This document shows positions 30,573-35,137 of a DNA stretch of 47,376 nt, piece by piece. The stretch covers positions 1 through 47,376 of the IMG/VR virus record IMGVR_UViG_3300032782_000015. One strand, written 5' to 3'. The DNA is from a virus. Position 1 is the first letter of the stretch. Each line of letters opens with the position of its first letter. The notes beneath the pieces are model-generated. The model was given only the letters and a program-made list of their open reading frames with translations. It was not told the origin of the DNA and searched no databases. A program made the position numbers and the translations under genes.

Positions 30573-30734
30573 TGTGGCGATGATAAAATTCCGGTTTACT
30601 AGTGAGAGTTTTTTATGCTTTTGAGGCATTTTTAACGGGGAAAATTGGCGACGCTTAATTGTCCGGTAACTCTTCCTATTTCCTAAACTTAGGAAGAATG
30701 ATTTTGTTAACTAGTTGTTTTCCTTAATTATCAT

Positions 30735-30778
30735 ACAGATTTTGAGTCTGCCGCGTATACCAATTCCGCCACTGGGGC
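30735..30778 (-). other. 5' half of a tRNA-Leu(CAA) gene: probable attP core
   Basis: Read leftward, 44 bases align with a bacterial leucine tRNA: acceptor GCCCCAG, TG, D arm GCGG-AATTGGTATAC-GC, and anticodon arm GCAGA-CTCAAAA-TCTGT with anticodon CAA. Similarity stops at the end of the anticodon stem. A partial tRNA gene beside an integrase is the usual mark of a tRNA-integrating element. The anticodon loop is a known crossover location. Confidence 0.85.
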
Positions 30779-30830
30779 CTTATTTTTCAATGGGTTACAC
30801 CATCATATTTTTGCCGTTTTCCATCCAATC

Positions 30831-30905
30831 TTCCTAAATCTTCCTAAATCTTCCTAAAATCTTCCTAGGTTCTTCCTAAAAGTCTATTTAGGAAGCGCCT
30901 AGGAA
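30831..30905. repeat. Helically phased TTCCTAAA repeats (integrase arm sites)
   Basis: Five direct copies start at 30831, 30841, 30851, 30862 and 30873, spaced 10, 10, 11 and 11 bases. Two inverted copies follow (30887-30894 TTTAGGAA and 30900-30905 TAGGAA). Spacing of one helical turn places all copies on the same face of the DNA. Confidence 0.85.
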
Positions 30906-30910
30906 TTCTA

Positions 30911-32002
30911 TTATCGCCCATACCGGCGCGCGTCAATTGGTAATAGATCATTCATGATACTCGAACATTCGGCCATATGCGCCGGGGCGTATTTTGCATA
31001 CCGAAGCGTCTGATTGATGCATTTATGCCCCATCCAGATTTGCACGCGCGGGATTTCCACACCATTTTGCACCAGCCGCGTGGCGCAGGTATGCCGGAAT
31101 GTATAGACGACTGCATCATCTCCTAGCCAAGAAAGATGCTCCCGCAGCTTCCCCCAGAGATCGCGTGTTGCCGGCAATCCGGGATGCGCCCAAGTGAACG
31201 GCCCCTGGTTGCGCTCGGAAAGCTCGCCCATCGCCTCTACGGCGGCCGAGGCTGCCTCCGGCATACGCAGGCAGCGGGGCGTCGTGTTCTTGGTAATCGT
31301 GCCGTCCAGGTCGCACATCTGCCCTTTGAACGATGCCCATTTGAGCCGGTATGCCTCAATCGGCCGGCATCCCATGATGACCAAAAACGTAAACAGGGCG
31401 GCGTGACGGTCAAATTTCCATGCCTGGCATGTCTCAATGATGGCTCGTACTTCCTCGTCGGTAAACCACCGCATGCGGCCCGCGCCAACAGCACGTTTGT
31501 GCATCTCTGGCTTTCTCGCAATGATGCCCAGGTGCACAGCCTCTTTTGCCAGAGCGCTGATGGCGGCTGAGTAATGATTGACGGTGTTCCCCGATACCTT
31601 GGCATCGTATTCGCGCAGGAATCGCGTTACAGTCACGTCAGAGAGCGCCTCGGCGGCGGGCATCGTATCGCCGCACCATTCGACATATCGCAGAGCATTG
31701 CCCGTGGACGCCTTCCTGGCGGTCTTGCCATCGGCATATCGCGCCGATTTATGGGCAGGGTTGCCCGTCCAGCGTTTATCGTCCACGCGCCGGTAAAGCT
31801 GCCCGATGGTCAGCCCCGGAGCTTGGCGTAAAAAAGAAGCCGGCGCTATGGGGGGCACCGGCTCTGGATCGGGTTTCTTCTGACGGCATTCCGCCGCGTA
31901 TTTTTCAGCTTCGTCCCGCTGGCTGAAAGTCCGGTCGATTTTTTGACCGGCAACAGTCACTTTGACACGCCAGCCGCTACCGTTTGGATAAATCCCTTTC
32001 AT
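30911..32002 (-). CDS. int: Tyrosine-recombinase integrase
   Basis: The protein has 363 residues. The N-terminal part has an arm-binding-type segment (GSGWRVKVTVAGQKIDRTFS). A core-binding helical domain spans about residues 62-165. The catalytic domain has Arg213 (MGCRPIEAYRLKW), a basic residue near 238, Arg303 in YTFRHTCATRL (Tyr300 at the position often held by His), His326 in WMGH and Tyr334 in QTLRYAKY. It catalyses integration at the adjacent attP and, with an excisionase, excision. It is the distal gene of the leftward early operon, which suggests expression coupled to the recombination genes. The start overlaps the excisionase-like gene by 26 bases. Confidence 0.92.
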   Translation of the reverse strand: MKGIYPNGSGWRVKVTVAGQKIDRTFSQRDEAEKYAAECRQKKPDPEPVPPIAPASFLRQAPGLTIGQLYRRVDDKRWTGNPAHKSARYADGKTARKASTGNALRYVEWCGDTMPAAEALSDVTVTRFLREYDAKVSGNTVNHYSAAISALAKEAVHLGIIARKPEMHKRAVGAGRMRWFTDEEVRAIIETCQAWKFDRHAALFTFLVIMGCRPIEAYRLKWASFKGQMCDLDGTITKNTTPRCLRMPEAASAAVEAMGELSERNQGPFTWAHPGLPATRDLWGKLREHLSWLGDDAVVYTFRHTCATRLVQNGVEIPRVQIWMGHKCINQTLRYAKYAPAHMAECSSIMNDLLPIDARRYGR

Positions 32003-32234
32003 TCTTCAACTCCTTCTTCTTTCTTTTGCCTTTGGCTGCTCTTAAAGCGGGAGGCCGCGCACGAGATGAGGCTTCCAACAGCCGGTTGCGCCAATAGAGA
32101 TAACGGCCATTGACCCGGCATTCGAACCCTTGCGTGCGCATCTGTTTAATCCATGCTTGAAAGGCAGGCTTCCCGGAAAATCGCAGTAGTACGATTGCCT
32201 CTTCTGCCGTTAACATGGGCTGTTCATCTGTCAT
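31977..32234 (-). CDS. Excisionase-like DNA-binding protein
   Basis: The protein has 85 residues. LTAEEAIVLLRFSGKPAFQAWIKQMRTQGFECRVNGRYLYWRNRLLE reads as a winged-helix/MerR-like DNA-binding unit like phage excisionases and torI-type factors. The C-terminus is strongly basic (KGKRKKKELKNER). The ATG overlaps the stop of the HNH gene and the end overlaps int, the usual xis-int arrangement. Function is inferred. Confidence 0.65.
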   Translation of the reverse strand: MTDEQPMLTAEEAIVLLRFSGKPAFQAWIKQMRTQGFECRVNGRYLYWRNRLLEASSRARPPALRAAKGKRKKKELKNERDLSKR

Positions 32235-34193: not shown

Positions 34194-34784
34194 TCACCCT
34201 CCAATCTTGCCGTTAGCGATGGCCCAGTATCCAGCCAGCGCGGTCTTCTGATCGCGGATTTGCCCGTTGAGCAGCAAATCCATGAATTTGGCCGCGGGGA
34301 AGCGCAGCACCTGGATGTATTCGCCATTCAGGCCGCCGCGCGCCGGGGTTTCCTGCCCGGCAAACGGCGCGTAAAACACCGTGATGATTTCCGAACTGCC
34401 GCCCGGCGAGGAAAAGCATTCGCTGATCATCTCTAGGCCCGCAGGCTCAAGGATAATGCCAGTTTCCTCGCACACTTCGCGAACAATGGCCGTCACGGCG
34501 TCATCATCCTCCCTATCGATCCGCCCGGCGGCCAGTTCCAGCAGGGTGTCGCCAAGGCTGCGCCCGGTCACGGCCGGATACCGCCATTGCTTGGTGAGGA
34601 TGATTTCCCCCGTGACAACGTCATGCAGGAGCGCCGCCACGCTATCGCCGGGATCGAAGGAGATGCGCTTGACCTTCTCAACCAGCCGCCCGGCCTCGTC
34701 TTCGACGGTGATCAATCCTTCACGCAGTTGAAACGGACCGAATTTCTGGCAGATTTCGCTGCCGATTTTGTATTTGAATGTCAT
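34194..34784 (-). CDS. Nudix hydrolase (ADP-ribose/NDP-sugar pyrophosphatase-like)
   Basis: The protein has 196 residues, with AGAGGA 5 bases before the ATG at 34784. LLELAAGRIDRE precedes the Nudix box ending REVCEETGI; the spacing between the Gly and the REVCEE part is one residue longer than the standard box. FSSPGGSSEIITVFYA is typical of NudK/ADPRase-like enzymes, with the ITKQWRYP strand earlier. These cleave nucleoside diphosphates linked to another group. In a phage it may act on ADP-ribose or cleanse signalling nucleotides. It overlaps the upstream gene by ATGA. Confidence 0.85.
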   Translation of the reverse strand: MTFKYKIGSEICQKFGPFQLREGLITVEDEAGRLVEKVKRISFDPGDSVAALLHDVVTGEIILTKQWRYPAVTGRSLGDTLLELAAGRIDREDDDAVTAIVREVCEETGIILEPAGLEMISECFSSPGGSSEIITVFYAPFAGQETPARGGLNGEYIQVLRFPAAKFMDLLLNGQIRDQKTALAGYWAIANGKIGG

Positions 34785-35137
34785 CTCAATCCTCTGTTTC
34801 CTTGGCGGCACGAACTCTCATACGTGCGCCACATTTCAATCAGCATAAAGGCGGCGTCCTTCCGGGACTGCATGACTTGCCAAGCCCCGGAGGCCGTCAC
34901 CCATTCGTCAAGCGCGGCCTTGTAAGCCGGCGTTGAGCGGGCCGTATGCTGGCGCAACGTCGCCGCGCCATCGGCCGCCACCACTTGCAAGGCTTCGACG
35001 TGCTTCAGCATCGCCTCAGCCTTCACCAGGCGCTCGCGGGCAATTGCCATATCGTCTGGCATTCTGTCCGCGAGCCATTGCATATCAATCTCCACGCGCC
35101 GGTAAAGCGCATCAATCGACCTGTCGGAAAGCCTCAT
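34781..35137 (-). CDS. Hypothetical helical protein, 118 aa
   Basis: It is coupled at both ends (ATGA overlaps with the Nudix gene and with the upstream gene). It is almost fully helical: SIDALYRRVEIDMQWLADRM, ARERLVKAEAMLKHVEALQV and the final DAAFMLIEMWRTYES. The pattern resembles small accessory proteins in phage recombination operons. No family assigned. Confidence 0.6.
   Translation of the reverse strand: MRLSDRSIDALYRRVEIDMQWLADRMPDDMAIARERLVKAEAMLKHVEALQVVAADGAATLRQHTARSTPAYKAALDEWVTASGAWQVMQSRKDAAFMLIEMWRTYESSCRQGNRGLR

Follow-up and report, generated by a model that had tools for sequence, protein, structure and literature searches.

A probable phage attachment site built on the 5' half of tRNA-Leu(CAA) beside a tyrosine integrase gene

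What is half a tRNA gene doing beside the integrase gene of a phage? The window analyzed here, 47,376 b in length, corresponds to an entire IMG/VR virus record, in which a tRNA-like stretch lies just 3' of an integrase gene and on the same strand, 132 nt beyond the int stop codon (Table 1). A preliminary description had read this place as a phage attachment site (attP) composed of the 5' half of tRNA-Leu(CAA) and arm-type integrase sites. Besides int, the window carries genes for a terminase, a major head protein, a head-closure protein and a tail protein of the GTA TIM-barrel type, whose top matches were Rhodobacter and Roseobacter phages. A NUDIX hydrolase domain protein (PF00293, E 4.9e-9) is encoded on the minus strand at 34194-34811. 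Close relatives of the phage or of its att region were found neither in the phage set nor, by DNA pattern and by protein, in the viral contigs, and the searches of both sets yielded no lysogen of the window phage.

Table 1 Features of the integrase and tRNA region of the window.
Feature	Position	Strand	Remarks
Tyrosine recombinase (integrase) gene, 363 aa	30911..32002	minus	Pfam PF00589, E 2e-13; PHROG integrase, E 2.6e-38
85-aa open frame just upstream of int	31977..32234	minus	overlaps int by 26 bases
5' half of tRNA-Leu(CAA), tRNA positions 1-44	30735..30778	minus	43/44 against the complete genes of genomes G001 and G100
Single differing base, T on the minus strand (tRNA position 22)	30757	minus	G in the closest bacterial genes
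Predicted core with crossover segment, CAGACTCAAAATCTG, anticodon stem-loop	30736..30750	minus	identical to the 15 bp at both G318 junctions
Int-side arm array (putative)	30827..30905		five direct CTTCCTA and one inverted copy at 30889
Distal arm sites (putative)	30672..30696		CTTCCTA at 30672 (+) and 30690 (-); near copy TTTCCTAAA at 30679

Alignment of the minus strand, 30778 to 30735, with a complete bacterial tRNA-Leu(CAA) gene (locus L101) paired tRNA positions 1-44 with one mismatch, and the local score of 83 compares with 28 for the best of 30 shuffled windows. The matching 44 nt cover the 5' strand of the acceptor stem, the D arm, the whole anticodon stem-loop and one further base; past tRNA position 44 and upstream of position 1 the identity to the host genes breaks off, and with L101 nothing is shared ahead of tRNA base 1. 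ARAGORN found no complete tRNA in the window, which so lacks the whole, isotype-matched phage tRNA that characterizes tRNA-dependent lysogeny. What the window holds is the tRNA from base 1 to the anticodon stem-loop and not its 3' half, as in a site of the 5'-half type.

The 7-mer CTTCCTA occurs 11 times on both strands of the 47,376 b, with eight copies between 30672 and 30895 and three elsewhere; in 300 dinucleotide shuffles of the 30672-30895 stretch the top count of any 7-mer was 3. The direct copies on the int side start at 30830, 30840, 30850, 30861 and 30872, at a spacing of 10, 10, 11 and 11 bp. Five copies at 10-11 bp had been described before, and this spacing was recovered, although one of the five reads TTCCTAGG and not TTCCTAAA, and three or four further copies have to be added. 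Following the rule from lambda, arm sites on both sides are expected of an attP, not of an attL or attR. Here the tRNA part is flanked by putative arm-type repeats on both sides, as an attP should be. The record gives its length and kind, not its ends, and the site could be the attL or attR of a prophage fragment, bordered by host DNA on its one side. We regard this as extremely improbable, since the same arm motif and phage-type genes stand on both sides of the tRNA part, and a host junction on the 3' side of the tRNA should have given the complete tRNA that ARAGORN failed to find.

Alignment of the window integrase with seven other integrases revealed the invariant residues R213, K238, R303-H304, H326 and Y335. 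A tyrosine integrase with its catalytic residues, as an attP targeting a tRNA gene should have, is consequently adjacent to the site. All 90 annotated integrase relatives were less than 60% identical to it; we take the listed ones to be mostly integrases of T7-like phages, and the taxonomy of nine of them was Autographiviridae in 9/9 cases. The 85-aa frame just upstream had no match in Pfam or PHROG; by its place it would occupy the position where an excisionase is expected.

The 5' tRNA half and the arm-like sites beside the integrase gene are thereby confirmed, and the earlier interpretation is partly supported: its reading of the place as an attP agrees with the 44-nt tRNA part, which matches at 43/44, and with CTTCCTA on both sides. 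From the sequence we interpret 30672-30905 as the attP of a temperate tailed phage, which would use its own integrase and the anticodon stem-loop of the host's tRNA-Leu(CAA) gene, with a probability of about 0.88. Counting against this reading are the mismatch at position 22, the missing lysogen and the fact that the prophage described below has an integrase only 27% identical and replaces the tRNA gene. The same holds for three results given further on: the failure to find a bacterial tRNA identical over the 38-mer, the eight other genomic integrases with no tRNA nearby, and the unsupported promoter. The one mismatch to the closest genes and the missing lysogen would also suit a fragment that is the relic of a captured tRNA and plays no present role in integration, and the whole tRNA-Leu of phage LUZ100 has been read as such a capture by imprecise excision (excerpts of PMC10134795). 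For the window a relic is highly improbable: the fragment has a cluster of the same arm motif on either side and an open integrase gene next to it, is preserved at 43/44 and ends where the crossover segment ends.

The attP reading gains most from a prophage. In a sample of 385 genomes of the class of G001, a single one, the alphaproteobacterium G318, contained a match to the window integrase at E <= 1e-20. In this genome a 40.6-kb prophage of a T7-like podovirus (C1:77655-118275; loci L262, L352, L353 and L263), whose integrase is 27-29% identical to that of the window (27% by BLASTP), is integrated at tRNA-Leu(CAA). Bases 1-43 of the split gene lie at C1:77627-77669 and bases 29-87 at 118261-118319, both at 100%; the halves overlap by the 15 bp CAGACTCAAAATCTG, and when rejoined they yield a perfect tRNA-Leu(CAA). 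In G128, G403 and G232, the three further genomes that were examined from this order, the gene is whole and 98% identical. A T7-like RNA polymerase, a DNA polymerase, a head-tail adaptor, a head protein and a terminase are encoded between the halves, and nine of the ten interval proteins scanned had a match. The G318 int gene has the orientation seen in the window, pointing to the 3' half, and a complete phage tRNA-Leu(CAA) lies between the two. Hence the two systems share a related integrase, the same target gene, the same orientation and, letter for letter, the 15-bp anticodon stem-loop of the window core; they differ in that G318 brings its own complete tRNA-Leu(CAA), by which the host gene is replaced and not rebuilt. 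Since split site and orientation are shared, the 5' half would come from the window phage, and the 3' half would be that of the host. The preliminary description had named a related prophage at another site as a finding that would tell against it; because the G318 prophage is integrated in exactly tRNA-Leu(CAA) and in this stem-loop, that objection does not arise.

For a wider view of the integrase family, an alignment of eight integrases served as query; from at least 600 candidate stretches listed, with at least 406 relatives, 80 viral loci were kept, and the following counts refer to the 72 that have at least 200 nt after int. A complete tRNA on the int strand followed int in 21/72 loci, a 5' half was flagged in 8/72, a 3' half only was found in 6/72 and no tRNA in 37/72. 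The control counts of complete tRNAs, 5' halves and 3' halves were 0, 0 and 1 for the reverse complement and 0, 1 and 3 for shuffled sequences. Five of the flagged 5' halves are convincing, namely L317, L332, L337 and L343 (Leu) and L342 (Trp). L305 and L350 were dropped as coding-like and taken as chance, L280 as degenerate. At L342 an apparent 5' half of tRNA-Trp(CCA) follows a related integrase, and sites of the 5'-half type may perhaps involve tRNAs other than tRNA-Leu. No tRNA was found in the loci of eight further genomic members of the family, and no half was seen in the ~450 nt after their stop codons. A clearly repeated 7-mer was present in just two of the 13 relatives tested (L277 with 8 copies, L346 with 6), and arm-type repeats were accordingly dropped as a family trait.

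Of the 18 complete tRNA-Leu found after related integrases (17 viral and G318), 17 have an exact copy of their own 7-nt anticodon loop within the next 150 nt, with 0.24 expected; after non-Leu tRNAs a second loop copy was found in 1/4. Such replacement-type sites, a complete tRNA-Leu plus a bare loop, include L278, L286, L287, L290, L338, L340 and L346, among others. Furthermore, a complete tRNA-Leu(UAA) lies beside the integrase in the T7-like phages HTVC200P (L254), a Limnohabitans phage (L258) and LUZ100 (L259). For the last, whose authors propose recruitment by imprecise excision in the excerpted text (PMC10134795), the tRNA may alternatively be read as a replacement for that of the host.

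These junctions and loop copies also bear on the place of strand exchange. Because the block shared with host genes spans 44 nt, the crossover is not fixed by sequence alone, and it could lie near the 5' end of the block, in which case the host would keep most of its 5' half together with the promoter; the mismatch at position 22 could fall on either side. We nevertheless judge a crossover there very unlikely, since the two G318 junctions have just the 15-bp anticodon stem-loop in common, since 17 of the 18 complete tRNA-Leu are followed by the second loop copy, and since with a crossover near base 1 no reason would be left for tRNA identity up to base 44. Our reading is that the site very probably serves as an attP through which tRNA-Leu(CAA) is rebuilt, its 5' half coming from the phage and its 3' half from the host. 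In the course we propose, Int would bind the arm sites and strand exchange would take place within the 7-nt anticodon loop. One end of the lysogen would then consist of the host promoter and a truncated tRNA 5' half, and the other would run from int through the arm sites into a complete tRNA-Leu(CAA), formed by the 5' half of the phage and the 3' half of the host.

With the 5' half supplied by the phage, the topology demands that transcription enter from phage DNA, and the phage might then furnish the promoter, as claimed earlier. The promoter itself was not supported: scans upstream of the half on the tRNA strand found no supported sigma-70-like promoter (p = 0.63), with a control that is weak, as the 0.05 level was reached by 27/75 host tRNA genes. 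The scan was passed by 4/25 phage cases, including P-SSP7 (0.017). A TATGAT 23 nt upstream of the half, picked out by eye, was rejected on account of its poor -35 element and 15 bp spacing. The rebuilt tRNA might be transcribed from phage DNA by read-through from int or from a promoter that went unrecognised.

The preliminary description had further held that the half predicts the attB gene exactly. The site does name its target gene, tRNA-Leu(CAA), but an identical copy was not recovered: an exact 38-mer of the half was absent from the genome contigs searched, and no bacterial tRNA-Leu(CAA) gene identical over 44/44 was found, the nearest reaching 43/44. A relaxed scan allowing one free base and one R gave L101 as the best match (42/43) among at least 120 stretches listed. 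The 38-mer was present at up to two mismatches in 38 of the 385 genomes sampled from the class of G001, and none of these 38 has the phage base T at position 22. Within the order of G001 and G100, of which 18 genomes were examined, these two showed one mismatch over the 44 bases; no integrase match was obtained in the 18 genomes of this best-matching host order. When the phage half was joined by script to bacterial 3' halves, the acceptor stem paired at 7 of 7 positions in 7/150 loci, which represent G001, G100, G107 and L113. The host is thereby narrowed to lineages whose tRNA-Leu(CAA) has an acceptor of the CTGGGGC or TTGGGGC type. A near-identical tRNA stretch was also present in 11 viral contigs; in each of them it belongs to a complete tRNA-Leu gene, mostly with further tRNA genes around it, and the records of these contigs yielded no related integrase.

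In G002, a metagenome-assembled genome labelled Asaia, two loci share ~130 nt up to the anticodon arm of tRNA-Leu(CAA) and then differ, L207 continuing as the intact tRNA and L209 passing from the same 5' half into unrelated DNA. This could possibly reflect a mixture of cells with an integrated and an empty site, or a fork in the assembly. As the ~130 nt in common are of the size of an assembly overlap and just ~140 nt follow, the pair was rejected as an integration junction and not used.

When the 5'-half label (7 rows) was placed on a tree of 35 integrases, it required 6 changes compared with 6.6 for shuffled labels, and since shuffled labels need only slightly more, the label is scattered; at least three changes are forced by well supported branches. 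(L292 is labelled 'full' in the tree, although the tRNA within 420 nt is tRNA-His.) The tree neighbor of the window integrase is L272 (92/95, not starred) on a long branch; L272 has a whole tRNA-Leu(CAA) as well as a CAA core. We would give even odds to the proposal that a single integrase family, shared by T7-like phages and further tailed phages of Proteobacteria and of cyanobacteria, places the phage upstream of the 3' half of a host tRNA-Leu and uses two interchangeable rescues of the host, rebuilding by a 5' half or replacement by a whole tRNA-Leu with a bare anticodon-loop core. The window and L272 would form such a pair, both CAA, the former rebuilding and the latter replacing. If this is true, the link between tRNA-dependent lysogeny and gene reconstruction becomes directly testable; the less expected part is that rebuilding and replacing are mixed among related integrases.

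The 5'-half arrangement is uncommon but already known, and the site adds one case to this class. The rarity asserted beforehand agrees with Islander, for which the excerpted report counts 159 islands with a displaced 5' fragment vs 3760 with a 3' fragment (PMC4383910). Nor is the layout new. In the T7-like cyanophage P-SSP7, int is likewise followed on the same strand by a tRNA-Leu 5' half that ends at the anticodon loop. P-SSP7 differs from the window phage in its UAA loop, its cyanobacterial host and an integrase 18% identical in the alignment; moreover, its genome is T7-like, while a GTA-type tail protein is encoded in the window. According to excerpts of PMC8776855, P-SSP7 and S-TIP37 integrate into tRNA-Leu, integration at the expected site was demonstrated by PCR, and that of S-TIP37 was lost without int or attP.

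The attP of the archaeal plasmid pTN3 matches the 5' half of tRNA-Leu(CAA) as well, with a minimal site of bases 2-44 (excerpts of PMC5495485). There, the rebuilt gene is cut off from its own promoter (PMC5495485; PMC8371274, both in excerpt), and expression of a rebuilt gene from element DNA is described as seldom met in bacteria (excerpts of PMC8371274). In contrast to the window, where the site follows int and int stays whole, integration disrupts the integrase gene of pTN3 (PMC5495485). With the tRNA-dependent lysogeny of Fionnbharth and Gaia, the window phage shares a tyrosine integrase, putative arm sites and a tRNA attB, predicted in its own case, in the terms of the excerpted PMC10865867, where the actinobacteriophages Gaia and Omega are assigned to tRNA-Leu-CAA. 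The excerpts of this source call the relation between rebuilding and replacement unclear and ask how frequent replacement is outside actinobacteriophages; outside Actinobacteria, it has already been mentioned for Sinorhizobium meliloti (excerpts of PMC11476347). Gaia makes good the lost tRNA with a complete one of its own and Omega rebuilds it with a 3' half (excerpts of PMC10865867), whereas the window phage would rebuild the gene with a 5' half.
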